Assembly (NCBI RefSeq): GCF_041381155.1
Contig: NC_091135.1
Coordinates: forward strand, 3,923,620 to 3,987,619
DNA from: Argopecten irradians
Lineage: Eukaryota > Mollusca > Bivalvia > Pectinida > Pectinidae
Reading direction: 5' to 3'
Length of the DNA: 64,000 nt
Shown here: positions 25,458 to 63,884 of the stretch, piece after piece
Position numbering within the stretch: position 1 is the stretch's first letter
Layout: each line of letters starts with the position of its first letter
The notes under the pieces: model-generated
What the model was told of the DNA's origin: nothing
What the model saw: the letters and a program-made list of their open reading frames with translations, nothing else
Databases searched by the model: none
Program-made: the position numbers and the translations under genes

Positions 25458-25706
25458 ATGGAGAGGTCCAACACATCGGACGATCAGCAGGGGAGCCAGT
25501 GTCGCGAGACCAACCCAAGGATTACCGTTATACGAAGTAGGGGACTACACAGTTCTATATCACAAGATACTATGACGGAGTCTAAGGAGGGTGCTGACTC
25601 AGCCAGGTGTAGTAATCCGTCATTTATCAGGGAGGTTCTAGAGAACAAGGACACGAGAATCAAGTTTGTGTTTAGCATCCTGGTAATCAACGCCTTCGTG
25701 GTATTG
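25458..25706 (+). CDS. MFS gene, exon 1
   Basis: It starts ACAAATGGAGAGG and codes 83 residues: a Ser/Asp-rich cytosolic N-terminus and the first helix (VFSILVINAFVVL). It ends ...GTGGTATTG|GTAAGTATG. Reading past this donor meets a TAG after three codons. Confidence 0.8.
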
Positions 25707-28026
25707 GTAAGTATGTAGGGGAGTGGTATTGGTAAGTATGTACGGCGAGTGGTATTGGTAAGTATGTACGGCGAGTGGTATTGGTAAGTATGTACGGCGA
25801 GTGGTATTGGTAAGTATGTACGGCGAGTGGTATTGGTAAGTATGTACGGCGAGTGGTATTGGTAATGTAAGTATGTACGGCGAGTGGTATTGGTAAGTAT
25901 GTACGGCGAGTGGTATTGGTAAGTATGTACGGCGAGTGGTATTGGTAAGTATGTACGGCGAGTGGTATTGGTAAGTATGTACGGCGAGTGTATTGTAGTA
26001 TGTGAGTATTGGTAAGTATGTACGGCGAGTGGTATTGGTAAGTATGTACGGCGAGTGGTATTGGTAAGTATGTACGGCGAGTGGTATTGGTAAGTATGTA
26101 CGGCGAGTGGTATTGGTAAGTATGTACGGCGAGTGGTATTGGTAAGTATGTACGGCGAGTGGTATTGGTAAGTATGTACGGCGAGTGGTATTGGTAAGTA
26201 TGTACGGCGAGTGGTATTGGTAAGTATGTACGGCGAGTGGTATTGGTAAGTATGTACGGCGAGTGGTATTGGTAAGTATGTAGGCGAGTACGGCGAGTGG
26301 TATTGGTAAGTATGTACATGATTGGTTCAGCTTATTATCCTGAGTATATTCGTACTACTCAGGGATGTCTAGTAAAGAAATATTTAAATTGTTATCTAGA
26401 TCGTTGCATGGCTATATCCTCAGTATTTTAGGAAGATAACCTCGTGACCGATACAATATGACGTTGTTTCTTGTTTAGGGATACAACGATGGACAGCTTA
26501 GACCTGCCTTCCCGGACCTCATTGAGATCGCCGGCGTCAGTCTAGAAAAAGGGTCCTCCATACTAACATCTTACTATTCCGGGCGTCTGATTGGTGCGGG
26601 ACTGGGAGGGATACTGCTGTCAAAGGTCAATAAATACATCGTATTCGCTGTGTCCCTGGTATTACAGAGTGGAGTTGTGGCTGCAATCCCCTGGTGTACA
26701 GTTTACGAACTAATGGTCGGTATACATGCTCTACACGGAATCTTGCAATCCATACTCAATGTAGGTAAGAGTATTTTAGTCCTTTATTAAATGGTATAAT
26801 GCTGATCAAATTTCTACTATGTATATTTCCTTAAGTGTAATATAGAAACCATACATGCGTCACATTAACACAATTCTGAATTGTAATTATTTCCAAACTT
26901 GCATATATTTCGTTATTGCATTTGACCTTCTTTCAATGATATCTGTTTCATAATCCACATTAAAGGCATCACCACGGCATCCATACAAATATGGGGAACT
27001 GATTCAAGAGGCAGGACCTATGTCTTCATTTTGTACGCGTTTCTAGAGATTTCCTGTGCAGTTGCACCCATCGGAACGGCGCCATTCTTGCATGAAAAGG
27101 AAATCACTAACGAAGTTGCAAATATCAGTAACACACCAATCCAGACCGGTACATGCTGCTCTGGAGATGAAACGTTTGTAAATGATACCAGATCTCCTTC
27201 CAGATACCCACAGACTGACTCGAGACTTTATATCGCTTACTCTATATCTGCAGGGATGGCGGTAGCTGTGGCAGTGCCGTTCTTGATTGTGTACCTGAAA
27301 ACAGGTGTCGAAGATTCTACGGGACCACAAACGTTTAAGAAGAGCACATTTCTTGACAAAACGTCACCAGTCTCAAATTATCTGCAGTTCATCAACATTG
27401 GATTATTTTCCGGAATTTACACCGTCATGGAGGTGTGTTATCCACAATATCTAACGGTGTTCTGTCTCCGGTATCTAGATTGGACCAAGACCTCTGCAGC
27501 CATGGTAACGTCCGTCCTCTCGTTCTCTAGACTAGGTGGCAAATTTGTAGGAATTGTTCTAGTACGAGTGATGAAGGCACACACGATTTTACTGGTTGTT
27601 AGTCTTCTTGATACGTTTGGGTTTGTTTGTTTAAATATTAGTGTCTATACCTTTGATGATATTGGCGTCTGGGCATCAGCCTGTATAACCGGGTTAGGCA
27701 CCAGTATCATGTGGCCTACCGCTCTTAGCTGGATCAACTCGAATCTGATTGCTGTCAGTGGTAAGGTGTCCAGCTACCTTCTTGTAATAGCGTACCTGTT
27801 TGCTCTAATTACCCCTATAGCTTTAGGACATCTAATGCAGGAGGTGTCTCTTCTCTGGTTTTGTTACATTAGTTTGATGGCGTCGGTTGTGATTGTAGCC
27901 AATGTTATATGTATGATAATTCACACAAAACGTCATGATAAGGGAGGTCATGTCTACGAAGCAGAGATATATACTATAGAGTCGGTGAACAAGAAAGAAG
28001 CCCAATCCGAGGTGACCAGATTGTGA
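25458..28026 (+). CDS. Major facilitator superfamily transporter, MFSD4 / NaGLT1-like, 531 residues
   Basis: Exons are 25458-25706, 26479-26764 and 26966-28026, with phases 0 and 1, and all junctions are GT-AG. The 531-residue product has about 12 hydrophobic segments, a hydrophilic N-terminus of about 65 residues, and a luminal or extracellular loop with NIS and NDT glycosylation sequons. GRLIGAGLGGILLSK after the second helix is an MFS motif-A-like loop. IQIWGTDSRGRTYVF and GLGTSIMWPTALSWIN resemble the MFSD4 / sodium-dependent glucose transporter 1 group. It would be a plasma-membrane solute carrier; sugar is a family-based guess. A decayed paralogue lies convergently at 48096-32611. Exon 1's donor is the first unit of a minisatellite that fills intron 1. 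Confidence 0.85.
25698..26312 (+). repeat. 26-bp minisatellite seeded on an exon end and splice donor
   Basis: About 23 units of GTGGTATTG|GTAAGTATG plus TACGGCGA. The first unit is the last 9 bases of exon 1 plus the first bases of intron 1. Every unit repeats a consensus donor, TTG|GTAAGTAT. The array makes up about 610 of the 772 bp of intron 1; the equivalent intron of the paralogue is 135 bp with no array. Confidence 0.95.
26479..26764 (+). CDS. MFS gene, exon 2
   Basis: The acceptor is CTTGTTTAG and the donor is GTAG|GTAAGA. It is 286 bp, exactly the length of the paralogous exon at 47845-47560. It codes GYNDGQLRPAFPDL and two to three helices. Confidence 0.85.
26966..28026 (+). CDS. 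MFS gene, exon 3
   Basis: The acceptor is CACATTAAAG. One long exon codes the remaining helices and a charged C-terminal tail ending KEAQSEVTRL, with TGA at 28024-28026. Confidence 0.85.
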
Positions 28027-29211
28027 TTTTATCTATTATTTTTGTTAAACGAAGGTGTCAGTGTAATGGAAATGAGTATTAAGTTTTGTTGCTGTAATGC
28101 CAAGCGAATATGGACAGATCTTAGTGTCGGTCATAAACATCACTATTGTGAGTGAGTGTAGTATGAAGGTAAGGTTCCCGAAACTTGTATGCAAAGCTTG
28201 AACTTCACTTAATATCTTACCAACACGACCATTATCATTTAGCCACCTTTGTCATATACTGTGATTAAAACTTCTAGGATTAAAATTCTGCAATATGATC
28301 CTTTTGTTACTTCTTTCATTTTGGCCTTTTTATTAATCCCAAAAGTTTCTGATTCGTCCATGGTACACTTTTATTTGTCATGTGAACAGATTAAAGTTAC
28401 ATGTGTCATCACTTGGCGAACATTTTAACTTTGTCATTTTTACTTCAGTAATCTATTGAAAACTATACGTTTTAATGAATGAAGTTGTGAAAATAATTCA
28501 AATGGACAGACAAACATGTATGACGCCTTATAACATTAGTTATAACACATAAACTGTGCTTTATTAAATATCCCTTTTTATTCCTTAAAATCACTTAACA
28601 ATGACTAATACGCTGTAAACATGTAAAACATCAAATAACAGCTAAAAACATCATTTTCAGCTGTTATTTGTGCTTTTTAAATTAAAACCTATGCATTTTG
28701 GTATTGCAATTCTCGATATGTTGGCAATTTTCTGGTGGTGAATAAAACATTAAAAACTGTTCTTGAGTCTGTAGTTCTTAAGTGGTTTTTTTTAAACGCA
28801 TTAGACAATGTACATTCACTTTCCTTTTTACAACGAAAGGTTCCATCTATTTTGTCATGTCGCATAATTACTTTAAAATACTATTTGATGTTAACAGCTA
28901 CACTCTATTGAAAATGTAAATTTTGAAGACAAAATATTCAAATATATAACAATGCATATTACTGCTGGCAACATGACAAGTTTTACTTCCAGCATTTGTC
29001 TATAATCCAATTTAACAAATGTGTGATTTTCTGTGATGAAATGCATCGTATCTTATCATTCAGTGCAAATGTGTAGATATCTCCTGAGGAAGTCTACTTT
29101 ATTTAAAAGTATCCATGGATCTGCTTTAAATTATTCTAGGATAAATGTAAACTTTCATGAGTTTTAGATCACGGCATATAGCAATGTCAAACATTGTAAT
29201 TGCTTAATAAA
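28027..29211 (+). other. Probable 3' UTR of the MFS gene, with poly(A) signals
   Basis: AATAAA occurs at 28741-28746 and at 29206-29211. Either could end the transcript. CAAATAACAGCTAAAAACATC-ATTTTCAGCTGTTATTTG at 28632-28670 forms a stem-loop. No other coding exon is seen. Confidence 0.5.
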
Positions 29212-29237
29212 AACCTTGTATATCTGTGTTGCAAGCA

Positions 29238-30262
29238 GCTAGCCCTGCACAAGGTGTGAGTCAGAAGCTAGCCCTATACAAGGTCTGAGTCAAGCTAGCC
29301 CTACACAAGGTGTGAGTCAGAAGCTAGCTCTATACAAGTTGTGAGTCAAGCTAGCCCTACACAAGGTGTGAGTCAGAAGCTAGCCCTACACAAGGTGTGA
29401 GTCAGAAGCTAGCCCTACACAAGGTGTGAGTCAAGCTAGCCCTACACAAGGTGTGAGTCAAAAGCTAGCTCTATACAAGTTGTGAGTCAAGCTAGCCCTA
29501 CACAAGGTGTGAGTCAGAAGCTAGCCCTACACAAGGTGTGAGTCAAAAGCTAGCTCTATACAAGTTGGGAGGCAGAAGCTAGCCCTACACAAGGTCTGAG
29601 TCAGAAGCTAGCTTATAAAATGTGTGGGTCAGAATTTAGCTCTACACAAGGTGTGAGTCAGAAGCCAGCTGTATACAAGGTGTGATTCAGAAAATAGCTC
29701 TATACAAGGTGTGGATCAGAAGCTAGGTCTACACAAGGTGTGAGTCAGAAGCTAGGTCTACACAAGGTGTGAGTCAGAAGCTTACTCTACACAAGGTGTG
29801 AGTCAGAAGCTAGGTCTACACAAGGTGTGAGTCAGAAGCTTACTCTACACAAGGTGTGAGTCAGAAGCTAGGTCTACACAAGGTGTGAGTCAGAAGCTTA
29901 CTCTACACAAGGTGTGAGTCAGAAGCTAGCTCTACACAAGGTGTGAGTCAGAAGCTAGCTAGCTCTACACAAGGTGTGAGTCAGAAGCTAGCTCTACACA
30001 AGGTGTGAGTCAGAAGCTAGCCCTACACAAGGTGTGAGTCAGAAGCTAGTCAGAAGTGTGAGTAGCTAGCCTACACAAGGTGTGAGTCAGAAGCTAGCTC
30101 TACACAAGGTGCGAGTCAGAAGCGCTACACAGTGCGAGTCAGACTAGCTCTACACAAGGTGTGAGTCAGAAGCTAGCTACTACACAAGGTGTGAGTCAGA
30201 AGCTAGACCTACACAAGGTGCAGAAGGTGTCAGATCTAGACCTACACAAGGTGAGAGTCGGG
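29238..30262. repeat. 27-29-bp minisatellite with an AP-1 motif per unit
   Basis: Units read AAGCTAGCTCTACACAAGG plus TGTGAGTCAG, with variants AGCTTACTC and AGCTAGGTC, about 35 copies. Most contain TGAGTCA, the AP-1/TRE core. The AGCTTACTC and AGCTAGGTC types alternate at 29725-29910, so there is higher-order structure. The array lies directly downstream of the second poly(A) signal of the MFS gene. Confidence 0.9.
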
Positions 30263-32610
30263 TAATAAATTGCGTTCGTCTTGAATGAACTGTCAAGCTA
30301 TCCATGCTGTTTTTTTTCTAGAGGAACTCAATTCATCACCCGATGAAATTGACCAAAGCTGTAACTAGGACGTGCTCGGCAATGCAAGTGTGGTAAGGAA
30401 TGATACCAATACTGTTATACAATATATACAAGATTTATTGTACAAAATATACATGATTGTTTTTGGTTTTTCCTTAAGTAAAACTAGATACACTTTATTG
30501 CACAAATGACACATAAGATACAATATTATACAAAAGTACCTATAAAAGCTAATTACATATTATACTTATAATAAACCCCTAGAGTCTCTAAGATACGATC
30601 CACGGTCTGGCTACCAGCTGCTACCTTGTGGTTCCGTTGATGCTACCCGGATGCAGCAACACAGTTACAGATCAAAGTCAAAAGTCAAAGTCCATGACAA
30701 ATCGCATCAGCATGAAATGTATGCATAAGTGTTTACGTAGAACAAAGGCCAACACTCGGATCTAACACAGAACCTCTGCAGACGTCTGCCTACACAGGAC
30801 CGCCAATTAAAAGTCCTCGATTCACAACCCTTTTATGTAAAAAACTGTACAACACTGTACTCTTGGCTGAAGTTGGTAAGTTAGTGCTATATATAGACTC
30901 CTCCATCGTCTGGGTTTTAAGCTATACAAATATTATCGTATGGTATTCCGATTAACTCTGTAATAACCCACTATATATTATTGATGATAATTAAATTAGA
31001 TAAAATATTAACAATTTTCGAACTCATAGATTATATTACCTTACCACCCAATTCACAAAATGCCAGGAGCATTCCCGCCTTTCATGTGTAGGGCGCATTC
31101 TCCAAACAGGTGCGGTTTCACTCCAACCGTGAACGCCTATCACGATCAACATATAAAGTGTGCATTGTGTAAACCATTGACTAACTTAAATTACGATGAT
31201 AACTAATGCTATTATAAAATATGTTTTGCTATACCATAACACAATCATTTTGAAATAGTTTAAATGTTCCCCACGTCAACTAATATACACAATCTATATA
31301 ATCGACACTAGCATGACTACATGTGCGGCGTATGTTTCACAAACAAAACGAAGGCGCGTCATTACAATACACATACACAGGATGAGTTCTAATCTTCGGT
31401 AGAGTACACTGGCCTAAAAAACTCACCACTTTGTTATACTCACAGATAGCAATACGATCAGTGTACTTGTACATGATATATTATTGACAAATTGGCTACA
31501 ACAAACTGCACCTACAATCTGTAGTTTGTGCTTCGTGGGATTATATACGTCATGGCTGCTCATGTATCTAACATGTCCGCTACACACAGTTGATAGTTAA
31601 AAACAGACCCGAGAGTGGATAACTAAATTCCGTATTTACAATGCGCGAAACAATTAAAACTGTAAAATGATTAAAAATATACATGTGACCGTAACACCAA
31701 AGCAAAGTTCAAACCTTCTATTTCAATTAAATCGTACATTATTTCATCATATACATGTACATGTATATTTAAACCTCTTATCAAACTTTTTGCGTGTCTC
31801 TCTAAATCTTGGCTTGTGCAAGTCTACAACCAGAGACGTAAGAAAATAGACCCGCCATTAGAAAACAACTTCCGGTAATTAAAATAAATAGCGAAAACTT
31901 ATTACAATTTGTCATATATTTATTTAGAAACAATGATCTTATCAGTGTAATCCTGATGAAACCTAAAACCTTTACAATAAATTTAGAAATCATTGCAAAA
32001 ACAATTTCGTCAAACATGCGGATGGATAACGCCTAGACTGTGTGATACGGTAGTCTCCCGATCCGATTCAAAAATGGAGAGTCACCGTAACGTGATGGGA
32101 CTGGCATTGCTCTTGGTGTGTTTTATGCAATCTTCAGTCGTTCTGACGTAGTAGCGACAAACGTCATACGAGGGCATGACACTTTTTATTCTTCCTCAAT
32201 GTTGCTCAATTCAAACGATAAACATGTGTTAGCAAAACGGTAAAAAGACGGAAATTGATCCGATAGACCCAAACAAAGCATAAATAAATCGCATCATGTG
32301 TAGAATATTTATTTATCAACACAGAGAAACCAGAATCAAATTCTCCGAGTACAAAGAATAGAGATGCCTATCGACATATTATGAGTTTTGATGAAATTCC
32401 ATTTTCAAACGAACGTTGACGGGAAGGGTTTGTATGTAATCGGGTAAGTCAATTATGTAAATTGTCAATCCAAGTGAATCCCTTTATCTCGGACCTAATA
32501 TTTCCCGAAGACAACACATCGCTAGACCCATATTCAATCGTTTAAATGTGTTAGGTACCTACGATGAACACTGCAGTCAGGCCTAAGTAGGCTAGTTACT
32601 TAGACACTAG
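30263..32610. other. Intergenic sequence between convergent MFS paralogues
   Basis: No supported exon. GATTTATTGTAC at 30430 and TTTATTGCAC at 30499 would be minus-strand AATAAA signals, and TTTATT at 32307 could end the pseudogene transcript. A candidate acceptor-like TTTTTTTCTAG at 30310-30320 leads into a short open stretch but has no partner exon that I can support. Confidence 0.4.
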
Positions 32611-33690
32611 TTACAACGTGGAAGAAACCGTTCCATTCTCGTCCTGCTTGGTTGACTGTAAGGTATATACCTCTAATGTGTAAGTATTACATTTTTTGTC
32701 GTATAGCTTGGTATGAATAATCATAAACACAATGTTTATTATATTCATAACAGAAGCGATGAGACAATATGTAACATAAACCACAGAAGTGAAACCTCTT
32801 GCATGAGATGTCCTAGGGCTATAGGTGTAATAAGACCAATAAAAGCAAGCCAACCATCAAAAGTTAACTGGCCACTTTACCCTCGACAGGAATCAGATAG
32901 GCGTTGACCCAACTTAATATAGTAGGCCACATGATGCTTATAGCTAACCCAGTTATACAGGCTGAATATACCTCAAATTCCAAAGTCAAGCACAAGTGAA
33001 ATCGGCACGTAACAGTCAGAGCAAGCAAAACCTCGAGATTATTCAAGTAAAACTTGCAAGTAAATAAGGTCGGAAATGTGACTTTATTACACGTACCAAG
33101 AAATATTCTTCACACCATTTTACCCAGCCTAGTCTGAGAAAGAATAGAGGAAAACGGATGATTAACTAGGAGCCCAGAAGATTTTTAGTCCCAATTAAGA
33201 TACTGTGACACAAAATTACCGTCAAGATATTGAGCGAGTTAGCTAAAGATCAAACTACTAGTAAATATCCCAGAAAAACATTCCAATATTTATAAACTGC
33301 GCAGTTTATTGCGACGATCATTGAAGAAACTGAATAAGAACGGATCATGTTTTTCTTCTCGTTATTCGTATTCTCAATGGAGGCAGTGGCATCTTTTCCG
33401 TCAGCAATTAGGATCAGGAATAGCGAATGAGAGACTTACGGATTCCCAATCATCCTGCTGAGATGACGTAGGCGATATAAAGTGTCGACTCCGGAGGATC
33501 AGCATCTTGAGAGCTGGAGGGAAGCTCGTGTCATTAATGGAAGAATCATTACCAGACAGGAATGTTGTTGTGATATTATTGACATTTTCCTGTAGGAATG
33601 GTGCTGTTGCGATGGGTGCCAAGCCCAAGAGAAATCTCGTAGAATAAGTACAAAATCAATATAGGTACGCCCTCTTGACGTTGATAAAAA
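32611..33690 (-). pseudogene. MFS paralogue B, exon 3 remnant
   Basis: Pieces in several minus-strand frames match exon 3 of the intact gene in order: APIATAPFLQENVNN (33628-33401), then degenerate middle sequence, then SACITGLAISIMWPTILSW (33046-32864), and then MIIHTKLYDKK and the tail (32853-32611). Frame changes and stops separate the pieces, and at least two shifts occur before APIATAPF near 33640-33680. It cannot code an intact transporter. Confidence 0.85.
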
Positions 33691-33712
33691 AAAAAAAACA
33701 AAAAAAAAAAAG

Positions 33713-33747
<35 letters not shown>

Positions 33748-33810
33748 AAAAAAAATTAAAAAAAAAAAAATATAAAAAGACAATATAAAAATATAATAAA
33801 AAAAAACTGC
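33683..33810. repeat. A-rich low-complexity tract
   Basis: Over 100 bases of nearly pure A on the plus strand lie exactly at the 5' edge of the decayed exon 3. It may be a retroposon tail or an assembly-prone homopolymer. Confidence 0.85.
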
Positions 33811-33892
33811 ATGGAAGTCGTTGTTATAGCTTAAAAAAGAAACAGTTTTTCTCTGAAGTAAATGTAATTAAATACATTGTATAATATCAAAC

Positions 33893-34061
33893 CTTTATTT
33901 CCGTCTTTGCATATTACAGAGTTTTAGCTCCCTTGCGGGGTAGGTATCGATTGTTACGTCATATTTTGTGAACGTAATTCACGTCGTTTTTTCGCCGAAA
34001 AAAGTATGACGTTACGCTCGCAAACATATTGCGTTCACAATCAAATACCTACCCGCAAGGG
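33893..34061 (-). mobile_element. Small foldback element, copy 2
   Basis: It has the same CCCTTGCGGGTAGGTAT palindromic ends as 7550-7716, here at 33930-34061. The left extension (33893-33929) is the reverse complement of the right extension of copy 1. Confidence 0.75.
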
Positions 34062-34103
34062 CACATAGCTCATATTTGTAATATGCCAAATACAGAATAT
34101 GTC

Positions 34104-34690
34104 AGGGGGTCGAACGTGTCTTGTTATGGTAAAGGTGTAACTTGGTATGCAAAGCAATATATGGCGTCGAAAGATCCGCTTCGAGAATCAGCAGTGATCG
34201 GGAAATCACTCATATCTCTTCTATGTTTCATGCAACACTTTTGTAGATACATTGTATTGTGTTTCGGTGACAAAATGATTGCAGTTTTCTAAAAATCTGC
34301 AAGAGGAAAAATTACTGTCCTCACTTAAAAAAAAACAATGAAGAAAAACCACGTGATTTTCACGCAAAAACAGCATCTCGACATGGTATAGGAATCTGTT
34401 TGGCTGAATATGAAATTGTAGTTCGTTAGAACAGCCGTATCATAGACAGAATCCTGTAAAATAATCTATCAAACACTTGGTATGTAAAATAATCTATCAA
34501 ACACTTGGTAGCGCAGTCGTGGACACCACCGGTTTTGGTATGACACTAGAAGTAATGAAGATTAACTGCTTAAAAATGCGATGTAGGTATTTAGAGTGTA
34601 ACTTTGTTTTTGAGTCAAACATTCTATAATGGACTAAATATCACATTCATTAGCGAGCCCTTTTTGCCAGGAATCCTCAAGAAAAATCCT
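34104..34690 (+). repeat. Dispersed repeat family F3, copy 1
   Basis: It begins CAGGGGGTCGAACGTGTCTTG and runs through CGGTGACAAAATGATTGCAG and GACACCACCGGTTTTGGTATG. It matches 40196-40862 over its whole length and 46910-47375 in reverse over about 470 bp. No coding frame is convincing. Confidence 0.8.
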
Positions 34691-35778
34691 GCTTGTATCT
34701 ATCATTTTCCCAATTTCTCTTATTTCGTGTATCTCCTCGGCGTATCGTTTTTTACAATCAGTATAATAATTATTATGAGTACGGGGTTTTTTTATAAAAA
34801 AAAAAGATGTTTTATTATTGTGCGTACGCGGGTCTACCCAAGTGGTTGCAATGAGTAACCGGCCGTTCTGACTGCATTTTTATTAATTTCTTATTTCAGG
34901 ATTTGTGAATGCATTAGTCCAACACTAGTTAGCGTTGTTGCTGATTCTCTTTATTGAATGCCTTTGCCACACAGAGGTGATTAAATATGCTATAATATTA
35001 CTTACTATTTGCGTGTGTCTATTGCGATACAATGTAATTGTCCTTAGACATTTTGTTTAATGAGATTTATATTATTACGTTTATTGTTAGCGGTGTAGCG
35101 CATCGTTTATCCCTAGATTGTATGCTTTTTAGTGTGTTAACTTATTCCCGTTGATTGTACGTATTTTAATAATCATAAATGCCGGATCTTACAGTTTGTC
35201 TTGTATGTGTAATGTATGTAATAGATATTAACCGAAGAGGAGGTATGCATCCGTATATCAACTGTAGTGTTTGTTACCCATTTAAGGATGGATTGAACCG
35301 GACATAGAAATCGACACCATTGAAGGTTCACAGCAGCATGGCTCACACGTTTATTCAACTGCGCATGTGTACAGATTACAAACATAATTCTGTATCCAGT
35401 TAGTTCGGAAAGGTATATACTAAATACAGGATAGTTGCACGAATGTGTAAGATTACCATTATCATAAACTTAGTAAGACATCACAATCCCTTTCTTTTTT
35501 CTTTTAAATGAAAGAACCTTCATATCATATTTTAGCACTCAAAATATTACCATATGTAAACTTTGAAATTAATGTCATAACATTATTGATTAAACTGTTT
35601 TGATTAATCACATAAACCATTTAAAATTCAATATTCCCCGACTTTTCAATTTTACTGTCCGTTCATTTTTCACAGTTCTATATAACACTATTTTCCACAT
35701 ATCTGCTTGATATGAATTCCAGAAATTAAATCAGTTATCATATGTAGTTCATATTCACAGGATTATTTTACATAGTCT
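34691..35778. other. Intergenic sequence, nothing recognised
   Basis: AT-rich sequence without a supported feature. Confidence 0.35.
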
Positions 35779-37901: not shown

Positions 37902-37907
37902 CTCCGC

Positions 37908-47375: not shown

Positions 47376-47559
47376 TGTAGGTATCGAAGACAGGTTTGTT
47401 TCATCGTCGTTTGCTGGAGTTTCGTCCATAACAATACAATAGTTATGCAGGGAAACTAACATGACAAGAGTTGTAAACTAGTTACATGTATGTCATATAA
47501 ATCATATTTAAACATTCCATTGCATCGTTATCATCGATATTTACTATACATGTACCTAC

Positions 47560-47845
47560 CTATGTTTAATACGCCTAACAAAGTCCCGTGTAGCGCATGT
47601 GCAGCCACCATCAGTTCATAAACTGAACACCAGGGGATGGCTGCCACTATCCCGCTATCTACAACCAATGGCACCACAAATAAAAGGTATGGATTAAACT
47701 TTGACAGCAAAATCCCTCCCAGACCAGCACCAACCAAACGTCCCGAGACATAGGAGGTGATTATCGAGGAACCTCTTTCCAAATCGACATTGGTGATCTC
47801 AATAAGGTCCGGAAAGGCGGGTCTAAGTTGACCTTCATGATAACC
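47560..47845 (-). pseudogene. MFS paralogue B, exon 2
   Basis: Acceptor TTGTTGTAG, donor ATAG|GTAGGT, 286 bp, open throughout (GYHEGQLRPAFPDL ... GVLNIG). Length and phase equal exon 2 of the intact gene. This exon alone is intact; the flanking exons are not. Confidence 0.85.
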
Positions 47846-47980
47846 CTACAACAAAAAATCACTTTCGAGGTACAGGTTGATAATGAAAACTTAACAAGAC
47901 CTCCCCCTAGCACCAAGACAGAACATAAACATGGACGTCTACAGAAATAGCTCTTGATATCAATGCCTACTTCTGCTCAC

Positions 47981-48096
47981 CAATGCCATCAAAGCTGCTA
48001 TCACAAGGACACACTAATCAACACCTTGACCCGGATGTACTTGTTCTCTCTGATTAGTGATGATATCCGCCGATTGGATGGAATATTGTGTGCCAT
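47981..48096 (-). pseudogene. MFS paralogue B, exon 1 with frameshift
   Basis: It starts MAHNIPSNRRISSLIRENKY and resembles the FIREVLENKDTRIKF segment of the intact gene. The length of 116 bp breaks the frame: the end of the helix (VIAALMAL) and its donor TTG|GTGAGC are in another frame, with TGATAG between them. A single-base indel explains it. Intron 1 here is 135 bp and has no minisatellite. Confidence 0.75.
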
Positions 48097-51890: not shown

Positions 51891-51892
51891 TT

Positions 51893-52742: not shown

Positions 52743-52946
52743 TTCAATCCCAACTTGATACTACATTCAGAGTCTGGTGACTTCAGTATGAAACTCCTCC
52801 AGGTTTGTTGACTGAAAAATGACATAGTTATGGTACATATATAATATCTTTTTACAATTAAGCATTTATAGCATCATTTCATAATTGACTTGAATATTCG
52901 ATCATGATGTGTTTTAACCAGTGCTCTATCTTTATATAGGTATGCA

Positions 52947-53100
52947 TTTAAGCAGTGAACATCTTTCAGTTGGCATTCTTAGCCAATATGAATGCCAACT
53001 GCCTATAAAGGCAAATTCTATGAAGCGCTCTAGCGCTTCATGTTGAATTTGTATAAACATTGGCTATTAATGCCAACAGAAGACATTCAATGCTTATATT
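52947..53100. repeat. Nested inverted repeat
   Basis: The centre TGAAGCGCTCTAGCGCTTCA is almost self-complementary. The outer arms (AGTTGGCATTCTTAGCCAAT and its imperfect inverse ending at 53077) make a hairpin of about 150 bp. Confidence 0.75.
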
Positions 53101-53711
53101 TACATTTGGTTTCATATTTATGATGAAACCAGAAGAGATTTTACATCTATGATGAATTAAATAATTCGTTATCCTCAAGGAAGGAGCAGCCATTTTAACA
53201 GCCATTTTAATAGCCGTTTTCCGTCCGTGATTGCTGGCACGACAGTTCTGATGTCACAACGATAATGACGTCAAAATAAGCAGTTGAAGTTCATAGTCAA
53301 TATGATTGCCAACAGCGTTTGATAAGGTTACATAGTGGGACTGCAGTAAAAATGTAAATATATTCATGTACAAAAAAGGGTTATTGACAAGGCAATAGAA
53401 CATGTAATAAACGTTTGATAATACTTTATATCAAAATGATTTTTAAATCAACTCTAGTGAATAACTAAGGCAGTTGATAAACAAAGCTTTTTAAATTCTT
53501 AAATTGATGGAGATTTGAAGATTATTTTTATGACCGAGACACCATACATATAATCGGGATGTACGATTTGTTTCCATGTGGTATGATTCCACTGTCGCTA
53601 CTGATTACTAGTTGAGACCGTGATAGATTCAATGTAGATTTGTATGGCGTATGCCGCGATGAAGTAGTAAGCGGTTCCTCTCTCGGAACACCTGGTTATC
53701 ATATCCCAGCC

Positions 53712-53754
53712 CTACACCGGGATGTTGAATGGGAAATCGGGAGCGTGGACCATT
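53712..53754 (-). CDS. AKR last exon
   Basis: The acceptor is GTATATTTTAG. It codes [13 protein letters not shown] and stops at TAG (53714-53712), the usual H-P-x-[FY]-P-F C-terminus of AKR1 proteins. Confidence 0.85.
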
Positions 53755-56700
53755 CTAAAATATACGAAATAGATTCATCATTGTTTTATTGGATAATACA
53801 AAACGAGAATTAAACAGTGAAACGTTAGGGAAATTTTCTAGTGTAAAATCTTGTCCTTTTCACATTAAAGTGTAAAGATAGAACAGTGCTAATCTTATCC
53901 TTTTGTAACTGTATGTACAATGAACAATAGCATTATTACAATATACATGTATCGGTAATTTAACAACCATTTTAAAAGAAAAATGAATGAAATCTTATAA
54001 ATATTTTCTTATCAATTTTTGCTACATTTGTGATTTTGTTTTCTTTTTACAAAACTTTTTACTTACATATGATACTTGAACATCCGTTGGTCAGTATCTA
54101 TGTTTTCAATAACGGCCGTATCTTCAGGCGAGAGTTCGAAATCAAATACCTGAAAAGTTCGTCATTTACTGTTCAGCATAGCTGAATTAAAATGTATTCA
54201 AAAGAACATACACATATGTAATCTGCCGAGATAAGTTTAACTACAGCAATCCCAACTGCAAAACTCCCTATGTTCACCTATATCAAATTGGATAACTATT
54301 AAGTTGAAGAAACTTAGTGTGCCAAAATAAACAATGTTATTCCCTGTGTGATCAAACTTACAGTTTTGTTGTTTGTAAACCACATACACACGTTTGTACG
54401 GAGAAATAAATGGCGATGGTACTCACATTTCCATTTTCCCTAATTCTAGAGGGCGTTACACTTTTAGGGATAACGATTAGCTCCCTTTGAAGGAGATTCC
54501 TTATCAGGATCTGAAATACAACCATGAAATAAAAACTCCTCATTTCGCGAACTCATGTTTTTTGATATATCCAATTTCACGAGGCCAATCTTCTGTATAA
54601 TCTTATATAAAATACTATATCTGTATTTACAAAATCGCTGTGTAAGATATGTCTGTTGTTACGCAATGAGAAATGTATCTGTTCTACTATTTATTATCAG
54701 CCCAGAAGCCGTTTATATACGTGAAAAAATCACAAGTTCATTGTTCATACTATTTCTGTTCATGTCCTCATAATCAACTTCATAACTTTGAATCTCTTAG
54801 TATTAGTAAAGTTGATAAGTATAAAAAGTATAGATATAGACTAATCACGGGAACTATATAATATGGTCGCTGGCTGTGTTCACACTACCGTATACGCAGT
54901 CATGATAAAGTTTTAACCCTAGCTGACTAGTCGAATCCTTCCAAATGCCTATTCTACAAACTACATTTACCTGAGCTAGAGTCGTTGATACTTTGTCGCT
55001 AGTTATCCTAAATTACATTTAACTGAGTTGGAATCATTTTTACTTTGTCGCTAACATAAGTTCGAGTCCTTTGATTATTTGTCGCTAGTTACCCTAAACT
55101 ACATTTACATAAGTGCGATTTTTTTATTATTTGTCGCTAGATACCATAAACTTCATTTACCTGACCTACTTTGTTGCTAGTTACCCTAAACTACATTTAC
55201 CTGACCTACTTTGTCGTAAGTTACCATAAACTACTTTTACATGAGTTCGAGTATTTTGATTATTTGTCGCTAGTTACCCTAAACTACATTTACCTGACCT
55301 TCTTTGTCGCTAGTTACCCTAAACTACATTTACCTGACCTACTTTGTCGCTAGTTAACCTAAACTAAATTTACCTGACCTACTTTGTCGCTAGTTAACCT
55401 AAACTACATTTACCTGACCTACTTTGTCGCTAGTTACCCTAAACAACATTTACCTGACCTACTTTGTCGCTAGTTAACCTAAACTAAATTTACCTGATCT
55501 TCTTTGTCGCTAGTTAACCTAAACTACATTTATACCTGACCTTCTTTGTCGCTGGTTAACCTAAACTACATTTATACCTGACCTTCTTTGTCGCTCCTTA
55601 CCCTAAACTACATTTACCTGACATACTTTGTCGCTAGTTAACCTAAACTACATTTATACCTGACCTTCTTTGTCGCTAGTTAACCTAAACTACATTTATA
55701 GCTGACCTTCTTTGTCGCTAGTTTCCCTAAACTACATTTACCTGACCTACTTTGTCGCTAGTTTCCCTAAACTACATTTACCTGATCTTCTTTGTCGCTA
55801 GTTAACCTAAACTACATTTATACCTGACCTTCTTTGTCGCTAGTTTCCCTAAACTACAACACCTGACATACTTTGTCGCTAGTTAACCTAAACTACATTT
55901 ATACCTGACCTTCTTTGTCGCTAGTTTCCCTAAAAACTACATTTACCTTACCTACTTCGTCGCTAGTTAACCTAAACTACATTTATAGCTGACCTTCTTT
56001 GTCGCTAGTTACCCTAAATTACATTTACCTTACCTACTTTGTCGCTAGTTAATCTAAACTACATTTATACCTGACCTATTTTGTCGCTAGTTACCCTTAA
56101 TTTCAAAACCTGAGCTGGAATCTTTTGATACTTTGTCACTAATTACCCTAAACTACATTTACCTGACCTATTTTGTCGCTAGGTACCCTAAACTTCAATA
56201 CCTGAGCTGAATATTTTGATACTTTGTCGCTAGTTACCCTAAACTATATTCACCTGAGCTGGAATCCTTGATACTTTGTCGCTAGTTACTCTAAACTACA
56301 TTTACCTGAGCTGGAATCCTTGATACTTTGTCGCTAGTTACCCTAAACTACATTTACCTGAGCTAGAATTCTTGATACTTCGTCGCTAGTTACCCTAAAC
56401 TACAGTTACCTGAGCTGGAATCCTTGATACTTTGTCGCTAGTTACCCTAGACTACATTTACCTGAGCTAGAATTCTTGATACTTCGTCGCTTGTTACCCT
56501 AAACTACATTTACCTGAGCTGGAATCCTTGATACTTTGTCGCTAGTTACCCTAGACTACATTTACCTGAGCTAGAATTCTTGATACCTCGTCGCTAGTTA
56601 CCCTAAACTACATTCACCTGAGCTGGAATTCTTGATACTTCGTCGCTAGTTACCCTAAACTACGTTTACCTGAGCTGGAATCCTTGATACTTTGTCGCTA

Positions 56701-59700
56701 GTTACCCTAAACTACATTTACCTGACCTATTTTGTCGCTAGTACCCTAAACTTCAATACCTGAGCTGAATATTTTGATACTTTGTCGCTAGTTACCCTAA
56801 ACTATATTCACCTGAGCTGGAATCTTTTGATACTTTGTCGCTAGTTACCCTAAACTACATTTACCTGAGCTGGAATCCTTGATACTTTGTCGCTAGTTAC
56901 TCTAAACTACATTTACCTGAGCTGGAATCCTTGATACTTTGTCGCTAGTTACCCTAAACTACGTTTACCTGAGCTGAAATCCTTGATACTTCGTCGCTAG
57001 TTACCCTAAACTACGTTTACCTGAGCTAGAATCCTTGATACTTCGTCGCTAGTTACCCTAAACTACGTTTACCTGAGCTGGAATCCTTGATACTTTGTCG
57101 CTAGTTACCCTAAACTACGTTTACCTGAGCTGGAATCCTTGATACTTTGTTGCTAGTTACCCTAAACTACGTTTACCTGAGCTAGAATTCTTGATACTTC
57201 GTCGCTAGTTACCCTAAACTACGTTTACCTGAGCTGGAATCCTTGATACTTTGTTGCTAGTTACCCTAAACTACATTTACCTGAGCTGGTGTCTTTTGAT
57301 ACTTTGTCGCTAGTTTTGCTATAACAGGATCGGCCAACAATACAGGTGGTGGGGACTCGCCGGGTACCCTACATAAGAGATAGTGGGCACGGTTTGTTTT
57401 AGTGACATTAACAACCTTTCCCCTTTTATACCGAACGTTTGGTGATATTTACATATATTGCAATCGACATATCTGGCACTATGAGCATCTAATCTGTTAA
57501 TAACAACCTTTTTTTTCAATCTCACTTGTAACAAGCGTTTTCATTTGGTTCAACAAATTATGCTTCTTGCTTGTAACAAGCGTTTTCATTGGCTTAACAA
57601 ATTATGCCATAAACCCATAACGTAAAAAATGACGTCACTATTTATAACGTTTATAAGAATTAACTTGAACATCTTTTGTTTTAAAATCTGTGTATATGCT
57701 CTGTCGATTATATTTCACTTGAATATTGTTGTATTTGGCTGAATTTTGTATTTTTACTGTATTATTGTTGTATTTGGCTGTATTTTGTATTTTTACTGTA
57801 ATATTGTTGTATTTGGCTGTATATTGTATTTTTAATGTAAGGTTTTTGTATTTGGCTGTATTTTGTATTTTTACTGTATTATTGTTGTATTTGGCTGTAT
57901 TTTGAATTTTTACTGTATTATTGTTGTATTTGGCTGTGTTTTTGTATTTTTACTGTATTATTGTTGTATTTGGCTGAATTTTGTATTTTTTTACTGTATT
58001 ATTGTTGTATTTGGCTGAATTTTGTATTTTTACTGTAAGGTTTTTGTATTTGGCTGTATTTTGTATTTTTACTGTATTATTGTTGTATTTGGCTGTATTT
58101 TGTATTTTTACTGTATTATTGTTGTATTTGGCTGAATTTTGTATTTTTTCTGTAATCTTGTTGTATTTGGCTGAATTTTGTATTTTTACTGTAATATTGT
58201 TGTATTTGGCTGTATTTTGTATTTTTACTGTATTATTGTTGTATTTGGCTGTATTTTGTATTTTTACTGTAAGGTTTTTGTATTTGGCTGTATTTTGTAT
58301 TTTTACTGTATTATTGTTGTATTTGGCTGTATTTTGTATTTTTACTGTATTATTGTTGTATTTGGCTGTATTTTGTATTTTTACTGTAAGGTTTTTGTAT
58401 TTGGCTATATTTTGTATTTTTACTGTATTATTGTTGTATTTGGCTGTATTTTGTATTTTTACTGTATTATTGTTGTATTTGGCTGTATTTTGTATTTTTA
58501 CTGTAAGGTTGTTGTATTTGGCTGTATTTTGTATTTTTACTGTATTATTGTTGTATTTGGCTGTATTTTGTATTTTTACTGTAAGGTTTTTGTATTTGGC
58601 TGTATTTTGTATTTTTACTGTAAGGTTTTGGTATTTGGCTGTATTTTGTATTTTTACTGTATTATTGTTGTATTTGGCGGTATTTTGTATTTTTACTGTA
58701 AGGTTTTTGTTTTTGGCTGTATTTTGTATTTTTACTGTATTATTGTTGTATTTGGCTGTATTTTGTATTTTTACTGTATTATTGTTGTATTTGGCTGTAT
58801 TTTGTATTTTTACTGTAATATTGTTGTATTTGGCTGAATTTTGTATTTTTACTGTAATATTGTTGTATTTGGCTGTATTTTGTATTTTTACTGTAATATT
58901 GTTGTATTTGGCTGTATATTGTATTTTTACTGTAAGGTTTTTGTATTTGGCTGTATTTTGTATTTTTACTGTATTATTGTTGTATTTGGCTGTATTTTGT
59001 ATTTTTACTGTATTATTGTTGTATTTGGCTGTATTTTGTATTTTTACTGTAAGGTTTTTGTATTTGGCTGTATTTTGTATTTTTACTGTATTATTGTTGT
59101 ATTTGGCTGTATTTTGTATTTTTACTGTATTATTGTTGTATTTGGCTGTATTTTGTATTTTTACTGTATTATTGTTGTATTTGGCTGTATTTTGTATTTT
59201 TACTGTATTATTGTTGTATTTGGCTGTATTTTGTATTTTTACTGTAAGGTTTTTGTATTTGGCTGTATTTTGTATTTTTACTGTATTATTGTTGTATTTG
59301 GCTGTATTTTGTATTTTTACTGTATTATTGTTGTATTTGGCTGTATTTTGTATTTTTACTGTATTATTGTTGTATTTGGCTGTATTTTGTATTTTTACTG
59401 TAAGGTTGTTGTATTTGGCTGTATTTTGTATTTTTACTGTATTATTGTTGTATTTGGCTGTATTTTGTATTTTTACTGTATTATTGTTGTATTTGGCTGT
59501 ATTTTGTATTTTTACTGTAAGGTTTTTGTATTTGGCTGTATTTTGTATTTTTACTGTATTATTGTTGTATTTGGCTGTATTTTGTATTTTTACTGTATTA
59601 TTGTTGTATTTGGCTGTATTTTGTATTTTTACTGTATTATTGTTGTATTTGGCTGTATTTTGTATTTTTACTGTATTATTGTTGTATTTGGCTGTATTTT

Positions 59701-62700
59701 GTATTTTTACTGTATTATTGTTGTATTTGGCTGTATTTTGTATTTTTACTGTATTATTGTTGTATTTGGCTGTATTTGGTATTTTCACTGTATTATTGTT
59801 GTATTTGGCTACCTTGCTATAACTCTCTGTGACACTGTCACACCTCTATAATGATTTGAGGTCTAACTTACGTAAGAGCTGCCGTACTACCAGGGGACCC
59901 TATCGGGCCATACGCCATCAACCTAATATTGTCCTTCAGTAAAACTCTCTCTAGCTTCCTCTGCTGAAAATAAGCGTGACACTCAACCTGCATAAAGCAA
60001 AATATAAAAATGTACATCATTTGTACCGCTACAAAACGTTTTTGTTCAGAAAAGGAAAATTATTGATAGTATACGGTGTAGTAGTAAGAGAAAAAAAGTA
60101 GTTTGTATACAGAAATTCGTCAAGCAGTAAATATTTTCTCTCTTAGACAAACAACATAAATACAGAAATGTATTTCACAACGATAGAGGTACACTTACTG
60201 ATGAATTTTAGTGTAAAACCTATTGATTAATAACTTTACACTAAGTTATTTTCGCGGCGTTTTCATATCTCAGAATGTTTTCATGTCTCAGGACGTTTTC
60301 ATGTCTCAGGACGTTTTCTTATCTCAGAGCGTTTTCATTTCTCAGAACATTTTCACATCTCAGAACGTTTACATGTCTCTGAACGTTTTTATGTCTCAGA
60401 ACGTTTTCATGGCAATTAAATTTCCCGATTAAGAGGTTTAAAACTCTATTGCGCTTGCAGCTGAAACTGGTTTTAGTTCATGTGTAAAATGAAAACACTC
60501 CCAAACCTGATTCAATACTGGCTTTACTCGTGCAACTTTCAAGATGCGTGCCACTTGTGCGGCATTGAAGTTCGATACCCCGATACTCTTTGCTTTCCCT
60601 TCATCGACAAGTTTCTCCATTTCCTATAGGATAAGAAAACTGAAAAGGTCAGGCGGGAAATTTTTGATACAATATTGTGACAAATCTTTTTTATATGTAA
60701 CGTCATTGTCATTAAAGGCCAACTAGCTCTCCGAAACGGTTTTAGATTGGAATTAAATCGAAATTGATAATTTTGTAGAGTCACAAAAGTTATTAGCTTA
60801 CCGTTAATACTACACCCGTCATCCCATTCTGAAGAATTAAATTTGAATAAATTAATTTTTAATTTTCATAACGCGGGTCGTATTACGTTTCCCGCCGTCG
60901 TCCTAATTACCGAGCGTTAGATGACTGAGGCAGACGGCAGAAGAGCTGAATGAATCTTCACCGTTAAATATAGTTTACGCATGAAATCTTGCATTTGTTT
61001 GGCAATGTAACCTCATTTTTGGCCATGGATATATATTTTCTTATGTTAAGTATGTTTTTAAGAAACTTAACTTTTTTGTTTCGGAAAGGTAATGGGTCTT
61101 TAATGCATTGACAAAATGTTTTTATCTCTTACCTTACTTGCAAATACACCATTAAACTGCTATAATGTTTCTCTTATACTTCATGATTGCACATAGTTGC
61201 TAAGGAAAAGACAATTACAAAGGTGGGGTGTAAGGCACGCGCACTGAATGATTACGTGACATCATCAATACATTGTGGATGACGTCATCAATCATGAAGC
61301 ATACGGAAAGTGCTCGATCGAAAACAGCTGTTAAAGCAGTTCACTTGACAGACCCATGTAACATTCTTGTTGTAGCGGGCAACGGTGGGAAGGGAATTAG
61401 TGTTCAGTTTTACTCGCTTGGCTGAGAGGATATGACAAAATACGTTTCCGCCAGCTTCCATCTACAAAAACAAGACTTCCGGTTTATCCAAATTCCGGAT
61501 TACATATACTATAACACTGAAGGGAGATAACTCGTACGACCTTATTACATAATCATCCGCCTAGCCATACTATAACCATAACATTGTATAGGACCAAATC
61601 AACTAAAGGCAGCTGTCTCGCTATACGTTTCAGCGAGACAGCTTTCCTTGACAATCAAAATACCGGTTGTACAAATGTTAAGATGACTTAAGCTTCCTCT
61701 CATATAAAAAGCATACAACCATGTTATGCATGTTTCAATTAAAAATTAGAACATCCCTTCATTGTATATGTATATATTACTATCGAATAGACTCCAGGAA
61801 GCGATTAAAAAGACATTCTCTAATTATCAAGATACACTATAGTCGCGAACGCTTACCTTCCAAACCCCTTCAAAATCCACCGCGCCATCGTTGTCCAGCT
61901 GACCATCAATGAAGGGGAAAATGTTGTTGGGGTCGTTTTGCTTCTATATTTATAAACCAAATAAAAACACACACGGGTTATCATGTTTTGTCCTTATCAT
62001 ACGTAATCTAACCTGAACGTTGATCAGGTGAGGACAAATATAAAAATTGGCCCCTGATGTCAATAACATTTTTCTAATCTTTTGCCAGCTATTACTGCTT
62101 AGTTTTGCTATCATTGTATGAAGTTTGAACAAATTCTGTCTCAAGTTATCCTCTAGAAACGAAAATTTGTGAACAAACTATTTTTAGTAACGGTGACCTT
62201 TTGACCCCAAATGCAATCCCAAGCAATTTCATTGATGTGTTCTTAACGTATCATCTGGAAACTAAAATTTGTAAAAAAAAATCTATTTTCAGTAACAGTG
62301 ACCTTTGTTGTTGAACTTTTGACCTCAAATCTAATCCCGAGCAATTCCATTGATGTGTTCTCAACTTATCCGAAAACTAAAATCTGTGAAACAAATTATT
62401 TTTAGTAACAGTGAACTTTTTGAACCCAAATTCAATACCGAGCTGAATTTTCTCATATTATACCGTTGTGTGAAGTTTGATAAAAATACATTGATGCTTT
62501 CTCAAGTTATTGTCCGAAAAACTAAAATTTGTGAAACAAATTTTTTTAGTAACAGTGACATTTTTAATTGAACTTTTTGAACCCAAATTTAATTGAACCA
62601 AGGAAAAATAGTTTAACAAACTTACAAGATTTAAACAGGTATATTTTACCTTTGTCGTTATAAACAGGTATATTTTACCTTTGTCGTTATAAACAGGTAA

Positions 62701-63884
62701 TTTTACCTTTGTCGTTATAAACAGGTAGATTTTTACCTTTGTCGTTATAAACAGGTAGATTTTACCTTTGTCGTTATAAAAACAGGTAGATTTTACCTTT
62801 GTCGTTATAAAACAGGTAGATTTTACCTTTGTCGTTATAAACAGGTAGATTTTACCTTTGTCGTTATAAACAGGTATATTTTACCTTTGTCGTTTATAAA
62901 CAGGTATATTTTACCTTTGTCGTTATAAACAGGTAATTTTACCTTTGTCGTTATAAACAGGTATATTTTACCTTTGTCGTTATAAACAGGTATATTTTAC
63001 CTTTGTCGTTATAAACAGGTATATTTTACCTTTGTCGTTATAAACAGGTATATTTTACCTTTGTCGTTATAAACAGGTATAGATTTTACCTTTGTCGTTA
63101 TTAGATTTTTACTTTGTGTTATAAACAGGTAGATTTACCTTTGTCGTTATAAACAGGTAGTTTTAGTCGTATAAACAGGTATATTTTACCTTTGTCGTTA
63201 TAAACAGGTAGATTTTACCTTTGTCGTTATAAACAGGTATATTTTACCTTTGTCGTTAAACAGGTAGATTTTACCTTTGTCGTTATATATTTACTTTGCG
63301 TTTTTACAGAATTTTCCTTGTCGTTATAAACAGGTAGATTTTACCTTTGTCGTTATAAACAGTTAGATTTTTTACCTTTGCGTTAAAACAGTAATTCCTT
63401 CGTTATAAACAGGTAGATTTTACCTTTGTCGTTATAAACAGGTATATTTTACCTTTGTCGTTATAAACAGGTATATTTTACCTTTGTCGTTATAAACAGG
63501 TAGATTTTACCTTTGTCGTTATAAACAGGTAGATTTTACCTTTGTCGTTATATAAACAGGTAGATTTTACCTTTGTCGTTATAAACAGGTATATTTTACC
63601 TTTGTCGTTATAAACAGGTATATTTTACCTTTGTCGTTATAAACAGGTAGATTTTTACCTTTGTCGTTATAAACAGGTAGATTTTACCTTTGTCGATATA
63701 AACAGGTATATTTTACCTTCGTCGTTATAAACAGGTCATCCCTGTTGACCTTGTTTGTACTAAGGTATTCCTGGAGGACTTCGCCTATCTCGGCCTCGTT
63801 CTGGTAGTTAAAGGCCGTATCAAACAGGCGGTACCCAGAATCCAACGCGGTCCTCACGGCAGCCTTCACTTCCTCTGGCTTACT
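53712..63884 (-). CDS. Aldo-keto reductase (AKR1-like), eight exons, first exon outside window
   Basis: Minus-strand exons: 63884-63717, 61943-61857, 60623-60507, 59987-59872, 57368-57281, 54510-54427, 54149-54067 and 53754-53712. All junctions are GT-AG and all phases agree, giving 261 residues and TAG. AKRs are cytosolic NAD(P)H-dependent carbonyl reductases with a TIM-barrel fold. Catalytic Asp (LFDTAF), Tyr (NYQNE) and Lys (LFITTK) are in the first exon seen, and the NADP-binding [13 protein letters not shown] is in exon 54510-54427. The segment with the catalytic His, which should lie between 63717 and 61943, is not found. About 320 residues is usual; the first exon and this segment account for the shortfall. 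Two introns are minisatellites seeded from exon ends. It may be a working gene with an assembly loss, or a pseudogene. Confidence 0.85.
54067..54149 (-). CDS. AKR penultimate exon
   Basis: The acceptor is AACTTTTCAG and the donor is CATAT|GTAAGT, phase 2. [17 protein letters not shown] is the conserved block after the cofactor site. Confidence 0.85.
54427..54510 (-). CDS. AKR exon with cofactor-binding motif
   Basis: The acceptor is TGTATTTCAG and the donor is GGAAAT|GTGAGT; 28 codons. [19 protein letters not shown] carries the Lys, Ser and Arg that bind the NADP phosphate in AKRs. Confidence 0.9.
54957..57280 (-). repeat. Minisatellite (40- and 52-bp units) made from an AKR exon end and its donor
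   Basis: On the minus strand the 52-bp unit is AACTAGCGACAAAGTATCAA plus GGATTCCAGCTCAG|GTAAA plus TGTAGTTTAGGGT. Its first part is the end of exon 57368-57281 ([11 protein letters not shown]). A 40-bp form lacks 12 bases inside the exon-derived part and dominates 55170-56080. There are about 50 units, most with CAG|GTAAA. The array fills the 2.8-kb intron. Confidence 0.95.
57281..57368 (-). CDS. AKR exon that seeds a minisatellite
   Basis: The acceptor is CTTATGTAG and the donor is GCTCAG|GTAAATG. It reads [18 protein letters not shown], then [11 protein letters not shown], matching the LLEDPVIKEIA...KSPAQ block of the family. Its last 34 bases and the donor are copied across the whole downstream intron. 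Confidence 0.85.
57524..57607. repeat. Doubled 38-bp word
   Basis: CTTGTAACAAGCGTTTTCAT occurs twice with its flank, in the AKR intron next to the exon at 57368. Confidence 0.7.
57712..59815. repeat. 39-bp minisatellite in an AKR intron
   Basis: The unit is TTGTTGTATTTGGCTGTATT plus TTGTATTTTTACTGTATTA, about 54 copies. ATTATTG and AAGGTTTTTG variants alternate roughly every third unit, a higher-order repeat. Because 39 is divisible by three, frames above 600 codons are open on both strands; they are artefacts of the repeat. Confidence 0.95.
59872..59987 (-). CDS. AKR exon VECHAYF
   Basis: The acceptor is CTTTATGCAG and the donor is CTTAC|GTAAGT, phase 2. [12 protein letters not shown] and [13 protein letters not shown] are the conserved NQVECHPY and AYGPLGS blocks. 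Confidence 0.9.
60259..60411. repeat. 18-bp minisatellite, about nine units
   Basis: CGTTTTCATGTCTCAGAA and variants, in the AKR intron between the exons at 60507 and 59987. Confidence 0.85.
60507..60623 (-). CDS. AKR exon with SIGVSNFN
   Basis: The acceptor is TTATCCTATAG and the donor is AATCAG|GTTTGG; 39 codons. [20 protein letters not shown] is an AKR signature, and the exon ends KPVLNQ. Confidence 0.9.
61611..61643. repeat. Perfect 12-bp hairpin
   Basis: AGCTGTCTCGCT and AGCGAGACAGCT are separated by 9 bases, in an AKR intron. Nothing shows a function. Confidence 0.75.
61857..61943 (-). CDS. AKR exon, loop before helix 4
   Basis: The acceptor is ATAAATATAG and the donor is TGGAAG|GTAAGC; 29 codons. 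It reads [20 protein letters not shown] and ends FEGVWK, matching the segment that follows the catalytic-His strand in AKRs. Confidence 0.8.
62162..62600. repeat. Four degenerate monomers of about 100-145 bp
   Basis: Each has AAAATTTGTGAACAAA, then TTTTTAGTAACAGTGAC and GAACCCAAAT. They lie in the place where the missing AKR exon would be expected. Confidence 0.7.
62633..63716 (-). repeat. 29-bp minisatellite made from an AKR exon end and its donor
   Basis: The minus-strand unit is CTGTTTATAACGACAAAG|GT plus AAAATCTAC, about 37 copies. The first unit is the end of exon 63884-63717 (LFITTK, with the catalytic Lys codon) and its donor. Units at 63100-63400 have many small gaps, which may be real decay or assembly error. 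Confidence 0.95.
63717..63884 (-). CDS. AKR exon with catalytic Asp, Tyr and Lys
   Basis: The acceptor is TATGTCTAAG and the donor is ACGAAG|GTAAAATA. It reads [20 protein letters not shown], then [10 protein letters not shown], and ends DDLFITTK. The catalytic Lys is the last codon. An upstream in-frame ATG (63905) exists, but AKR proteins normally continue upstream through LGLGTW, so I prefer a splice acceptor here. Confidence 0.85.

Follow-up and report, generated by a model that had tools for sequence, protein, structure and literature searches.

A minisatellite of the human IFI6 (6-16) gene is said to contain multiple splice donor sites, as reportedly described by Turri et al. in 1995. 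According to a paper that cites this work, the downstream repeat units of this gene serve as donors (PMC4526556). In intron 18 of the human ABCA7 gene, a VNTR is built of 25 bp units that start at the canonical donor of exon 18, each unit bearing a donor, and its alleles range from 298 to 10678 bp; the RNA of this gene shows both canonical splicing and the use of a downstream donor, which retains one 25 bp unit and is out of frame (PMC5954066). The name of "exon stuttering", or sequence stuttering, has been given to a phenomenon found mainly on avian dot chromosomes, in which imperfect tandem copies of an exon's edge, together with the donor or acceptor next to it, run through the intron beside them (PMC12954441, Genome Biol Evol 2026). 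The chicken cases reported comprise 236 introns from 115 genes, 190 of these introns being located on dot chromosomes; over 90% of the sources are no more than 1 base away from the border of the exon, and the exon part measures 20–187 bp, with a median of 36 (PMC12954441). The same source describes an intact coding region, an ohnolog without the repeats and a large length variation, and speculates on GC content, G-quadruplexes or meiotic conversion as causes. It reports exon stuttering as new, and as not detected in other vertebrates except for GC-rich gerbil genes (PMC12954441).

Here, a window of 64,000 nucleotides from the scallop Argopecten irradians was analyzed, in which three tandem arrays (A, B, and C) run across exon–intron borders; the genome paper of the bay scallop (PMC7090048) was used as background only. 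The initial annotation of this DNA knew of no named system describing such arrays. However, exon stuttering (PMC12954441) and the ABCA7 VNTR (PMC5954066) share the same anatomy, and the IFI6 minisatellite appears to be alike. This kind of genome instability is already known, and what is new in this case is the mollusc, the low GC and the lack of a G-quadruplex motif. No invertebrate case, from molluscs or others, was found among the matches listed for the open-licence part of PubMed Central. The first-intron minisatellites of an earthworm metallothionein (PMC12783039) were set aside, since the available text describes no donor-bearing unit, and chicken MUC2 (PMC3549977) was judged not relevant from the text available.

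Host Genes of the Arrays

By homology, the window carries two neighbouring genes that are unrelated to each other: an MFS transporter gene (sodium-dependent glucose transporter 1-like) on the + strand and an aldo-keto reductase (AKR) gene on the − strand. The A. irradians protein P0001 showed 100% identity across 70% of the MFS query, and protein P0020 of the same species showed 99% identity across 64% of the AKR query. The GC content of the window is 37.5%. The three donor-straddling arrays are located within 38 kb, A in the MFS gene and both B and C in the AKR gene.

Coding exon 1 of the MFS gene, taken from the first ATG of the frame (25458–25706, +), ends in ...FVVL at a codon border. It is followed by intron 1 (25707–26478, +), with a length of 772 bp, or 186 bp once array A is collapsed, and by the rest of the gene (26479–28026, +), with exon 2 (26479–26764, +), intron 2 (26765–26965, +) and exon 3, starting at 26966 (+). 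Two degraded MFS paralog fragments were observed beside the intact gene, at 32611–33700 and 47531–48070 (−), which suggests a local gene cluster in which decay has occurred. Additionally, the region 18100–23720 holds an LTR-type retroelement whose ends look near-identical by eye, with reverse transcriptase/RNase H frames on the − strand.

The exon numbers of the AKR gene were assigned in this analysis. Exon 2 (63717–63884, −), the putative source of array B, ends in ...DLFITTK, and the next exon detected is located at 61857–61943 (−, KQNDPNN...GVWK). Exon 7 (57281–57368, −), the putative source of array C, ends in ...KYQKTPAQ, and exon 8 (54427–54510, −) begins with ILIRNLLQ.

Three Arrays Across Exon–Intron Borders

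Arrays A, B, and C are very probably exon-border minisatellites of the exon-stuttering type, generated by three tandem amplifications of donor-straddling segments. The initial annotation had them begin exactly at an exon–intron border, each unit containing the end of the exon and the 5′ splice site. All three run through the donor, and they start 9, 19–20, and 34–35 bases inside the exon, respectively. As for the borders themselves, those of A and C are well supported, and that of B was established by homology only.

Array A (25698–26318, +) contains 22 copies of GGTAAGTATGTA. Tandem Repeats Finder detected it as 26 bp × 23.1 at 25698–26289, and its last, more diverged copies were read from the sequence as far as approximately 26318. 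The unit consists of 9 nt of exon end, GTGGTATTG, and approximately 17 nt of intron, GTAAGTATGTACGGCGA. The exon ends at 25706 (+), and the periodicity begins 9 bases within it and continues across the donor. The array is near-homogeneous, with 18 identical units among the 21 parsed, which suggests a recent spread, and its GC content is 0.45. The border was crossed without a gap by eight of the nine homologues aligned (9 of the 13 homologous proteins found); the ninth, P0009, begins downstream. P0001 begins inside MFS exon 2, so the public model of the same species omits this border. The MFS reading frame is intact at the exon of array A. When intron gain was sought at this array, none was detected, and the degraded MFS paralog shares this intron position, its intron there, of 135 bp, being free of any array (47846–47980, −).

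Array B (62632–63736, −) was detected by Tandem Repeats Finder as 29 bp × 38.3 and contains 34 copies of GGTAAA. Its unit consists of 19–20 nt of exon end, CCTGTTTATAACGACRAAG, and 9–10 nt of intron, GTAAAATATA (often GTAAAATCTA). The exon ends at 63717 (−), and the periodicity begins approximately 20 bases within it and continues across the donor. Identical units account for 11 of the 30 parsed, and the GC content is 0.29. Exon 2 ends with DLFITTK exactly where its relatives go on with L. A search of the window for the following exon of the family (L..IHIP, approximately 39 aa) found nothing credible, so that this exon is lacking between exon 2 and the next one detected (61944–63716), and P0020 begins later than exon 2, at MEKL; for these two reasons the border was drawn from homology only. 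This AKR copy may be decaying, non-functional or misassembled, and, if it is decaying, selection on the border may have been lost. The same AKR intron also holds, downstream of the array at 62000–62600, several diverged copies, seen by eye, of a segment (with ACAAATTTTAGTTT...) that exceeds 100 bp in length.

Array C (54949–57315, −) contains 31 copies of AGGTAAA in 52 bp units and a 40 bp variant. Tandem Repeats Finder gave rows of 40, 52 and multiples at 55054–57315, and the last, more diverged copies were read from the sequence as far as approximately 54949. The 52 bp unit consists of 34–35 nt of the end of exon 7 and 17–18 nt of intron, and the 40 bp variant is without 12 nt of the exon part. 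The exon ends at 57281 (−), with the periodicity beginning approximately 35 bases within it and continuing across the donor. P0020 reads KTPAQ and then ILIRNLLQ, joining exons 7 and 8 across the intron of this array. In place of the AAAAGACACCAGC of the exon, most of the 52 bp copies share an altered AAGGATTCCAGC or a similar sequence. Among 26 parsed units the distal ones are the more diverged, identity to the commonest unit being 0.71 in the distal half as against 0.96 in the proximal one, and the GC content of the array is 0.38.

Position of the Arrays

Three additional arrays were detected in the same AKR gene, none of them border-spanning: a 39 bp × 53 array 61 bp beyond the exon 6 donor (57724–59810, −), an 18 bp × 8.6 array 95 bp beyond the exon 5 donor (60258–60411, −), and a weak 23 bp × 3 array 156 bp from the exon 7 acceptor (57525–57595, −). 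The first of these is AT-rich and open over more than 600 codons on both strands. Two arrays elsewhere in the window were left out of the case count, since no upstream exon was seen by eye. The unit of the array at 8619–8760 (28 bp × 5) contains a strong donor-like 9-mer, GTGGTAAGT, with a score of 5.7, and 3 of 1000 shuffles scored as high; this array could be a fourth case, provided that an untranslated exon has its end at this point. The array at 29237–30220 (29 bp × 35) has AAGGTGTGAGT in many units, with a score of 3.8 that was reached by 42 of 1000 shuffles, and begins approximately 26 nt after an AATAAA (29206–29211), close to where the MFS transcript may have its 3′ end.

The positions were compared with a chance model in which the arrays are collapsed and the founder takes a random position, either within introns or across donors. 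Three of the six arrays of the two genes straddle a donor, against 0.35 expected (P = 0.003, or 0.0024 when acceptor-straddling was allowed), in a post hoc comparison of two genes picked for their striking look. In the AKR gene alone, excluding the weak 23 bp array, two of the four arrays do so (P = 0.015, or 0.013 with acceptors allowed), again post hoc. The excess of donor-straddling arrays is therefore modest as well as post hoc, and there is about an even chance that the shared position is plain background, produced in a repeat-rich genome with short introns by chance and by the selection of a striking case. The background is considerable: tandem arrays occupy 15.8% of the window (16 intervals, counting a poly-A run and two-copy repeats), and 21.7% of tandem repeats is the figure given for the related scallop A. 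pleuronectes (PMC10225492). Moreover, the borders are a sizeable target because the collapsed introns are short (186–1233 bp), and a fraction of a straddling array is expected in any case. The low probabilities obtained speak against plain background, to the extent that post hoc values can. The initial annotation had proposed that donor-containing DNA is prone to amplification, and a proposal of this kind is not sustained by so modest an excess at such targets. In its position rule the straddling is real, but the retention of donors is the same fact and not a second one. When a founder straddles the border, a donor falls within each unit without any added coincidence, and "every unit keeps a donor" was accordingly discarded as extra evidence.

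Alternatively, the start of the intron could be a favoured birthplace of tandem duplications, owing to breaks linked to transcription or to short direct repeats surrounding the donors. We consider this mutational bias rather unlikely. Five of the six arrays are closer to the donor than to the acceptor (sum-of-fractions P = 0.008), as it would predict, but the sample is small and post hoc, its sixth array is the one located 156 bp from an acceptor, and the same skew would result if selection acted against arrays close to branch points and acceptors. At the inferred single-copy border of array B, a 9 nt direct repeat, ACCTGTTTA, lies across the donor with a spacing of 29 bp; such a repeat would be expected if the duplication was repeat-mediated, but it could also remain from contraction of the array edge. 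By contrast, no direct repeat was found across the inferred junctions at the edges of arrays A and C, where approximately 5 nt of filler lie between the intron and exon parts. Both background and mutational bias concern the location of the arrays, and both are compatible with A, B, and C being exon-border minisatellites.

Donor Sites and Source of the Units

The initial annotation had counted over 100 donor-like sites, with an intact donor in each unit. This number was reached with looser patterns (23 in A, 34 in B, and 53 in C; 110 in all), but not with strict ones (22, 34, and 31; 87 in all), and some units of B and C have altered donors. Donor strength was scored with a hand-set matrix based on the metazoan consensus. 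On this scale the first donors scored 4.4 (A), 2.3 (B), and 4.6 (C), and the five other AKR donors scored span 0.5–7.0. Sites of at least 5 bits numbered 0, 0, and 3 in A, B, and C, compared with shuffled-array means of 1.5, 0.1, and 2.0, and a single site of array B reached 3 bits. The best donor of the unit was matched by 86 (A), 29 (B), 72 (C, 40 bp), and 46 (C, 52 bp) of 1000 shuffled units. The arrays thus contain many moderate to weak donors and not many strong ones, those of B being the weakest. Strong donors being hardly commoner than in the shuffles, donor strength contributed no support.

These many decoy donors might nevertheless be functional and tune splicing or expression, and the length of the ABCA7 VNTR is reported to change splicing (PMC5954066). 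Such a role is very unlikely here: the MFS paralog intron has no array, the AKR copy is without one exon of its family, and downstream donors lead to early stops. When reading beyond the first donor of A, B, and C, a stop is encountered 3, 10, and 4 codons on, respectively, and for this reason each protein is preserved only with the first donor.

In both B and C, the exon part of the first unit is coding sequence that relatives conserve; the likely source is therefore the exon, from which the copies in the intron would be derived. A screen of 10 exons against the window (cut-off of 26 bits; last AKR exon left out; the 9 nt exon part of array A too short for it) detected copies in the adjacent intron for AKR exons 2 and 7 only. 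Exon 2 gave 27 matches of at least 26 bits at 62654–63678, within array B, and exon 7 gave 40 at 54985–57262, within array C. One shuffled window, used as a control, gave 0 for these two exons and 3 over all 10. Nine other matches of at least 26 bits, for four exons, were MFS paralog fragments or distant matches, none of them in adjacent introns as judged from the listed best hits and ranges. Few matches reach within one base of the exon end (0 of 27 for exon 2 and 2 of 40 for exon 7), because the copies differ from the exon near its end.

The unit sequences of the three arrays are mutually unrelated, as are their lengths, and the claim of three independent births at exon–intron borders in two unrelated genes was borne out. 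When the units were sought elsewhere in the window with up to 6 substitutions (for C, with a 35 nt piece of the unit), none was found, and a mobile-element origin of the units was rejected for lack of such copies in the window. That the arrays are an assembly artefact or mobile-element sequence, and not a local amplification, is highly improbable: indels resembling sequence errors are present in some units, but each unit is confined to its own exon in the window and its source is conserved coding sequence. The assembled copy number of the arrays may still contain assembly errors. No G-quadruplex motif was found in the three arrays, whose GC content is 29–45%.

Discussion

The proposed course of events is that a 26–52 bp segment across a 5′ splice site was tandemly duplicated, on three occasions, and then amplified inside the intron. 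Growth would have taken place by slippage, unequal exchange or repair. The first donor would remain beside the exon, so that splicing there would leave the protein unchanged and everything beyond would be intron, while the use of a downstream copy would stop the reading frame within a few codons (3–10). Selection presumably tolerates these arrays since they would be almost neutral. The anatomy of the arrays, the independence of their units, the stops, the conserved exon part and, for array A, the array-free paralog intron were all read from the genomic sequence, and the first donor is predicted to be the one used in cells. The earlier view that intron growth is compatible with coding agrees with these results, the first donor staying at the exon end.

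In practical terms, gene models may break at such borders. Both models of the same species begin downstream of an array, P0001 after A and P0020 after B. On a broader scale, exon-border amplification at 5′ splice sites could be recurrent and genome-wide in scallops, donor-biased, and in no need of high GC, G-quadruplexes or dot chromosomes, an extension that we put forward only tentatively. If true, its reach would perhaps extend to repeat-rich invertebrates generally, and it would be a general route of intron growth and not an avian oddity. The donor bias would then arise since an extra donor after an exon is silent and an extra acceptor before an exon is not. Arrays across donors and across acceptors can be counted in any chromosome-level genome, which makes this a cheap test.

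With regard to known systems, intron gain by tandem duplication likewise involves a short tandem duplication over an exon–intron border with its splice signals; there, however, one duplication gives rise to a new intron, whereas in the scallop existing introns appear to lengthen. The scallop arrays apparently resemble the IFI6 minisatellite, compared here by its description only, in supplying several donor sites. Like the ABCA7 VNTR, they begin at the donor of an exon and their units carry this donor. In the available text, by contrast, the ABCA7 array is C-rich, its start is placed at the GT and an exon part is not mentioned (PMC5954066); both polymorphism and RNA effects have been demonstrated for it.

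Exon stuttering, as far as it is described in the available text (PMC12954441), involves donors or acceptors, whereas all three scallop arrays involve donors, a difference that is weak at 3 to 0. The exon part of array A, with 9 nt, is shorter than the lengths of the chicken screen. As regards the coding exons, the MFS frame and the exon 7–8 junction are kept, and the AKR gene is without one exon of its family. As in exon stuttering, the block repeated through the intron in arrays A, B, and C comprises the margin of a coding exon with the splice site beside it, their units are local and not dispersed within the window, and the MFS paralog intron without an array corresponds to the avian ohnolog without repeats. 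Unlike the avian cases, which are linked to high GC, these arrays have no G-quadruplex motif and are found in a mollusc, in a window of low GC; three cases within 38 kb of such a genome speak against high GC as a requirement.
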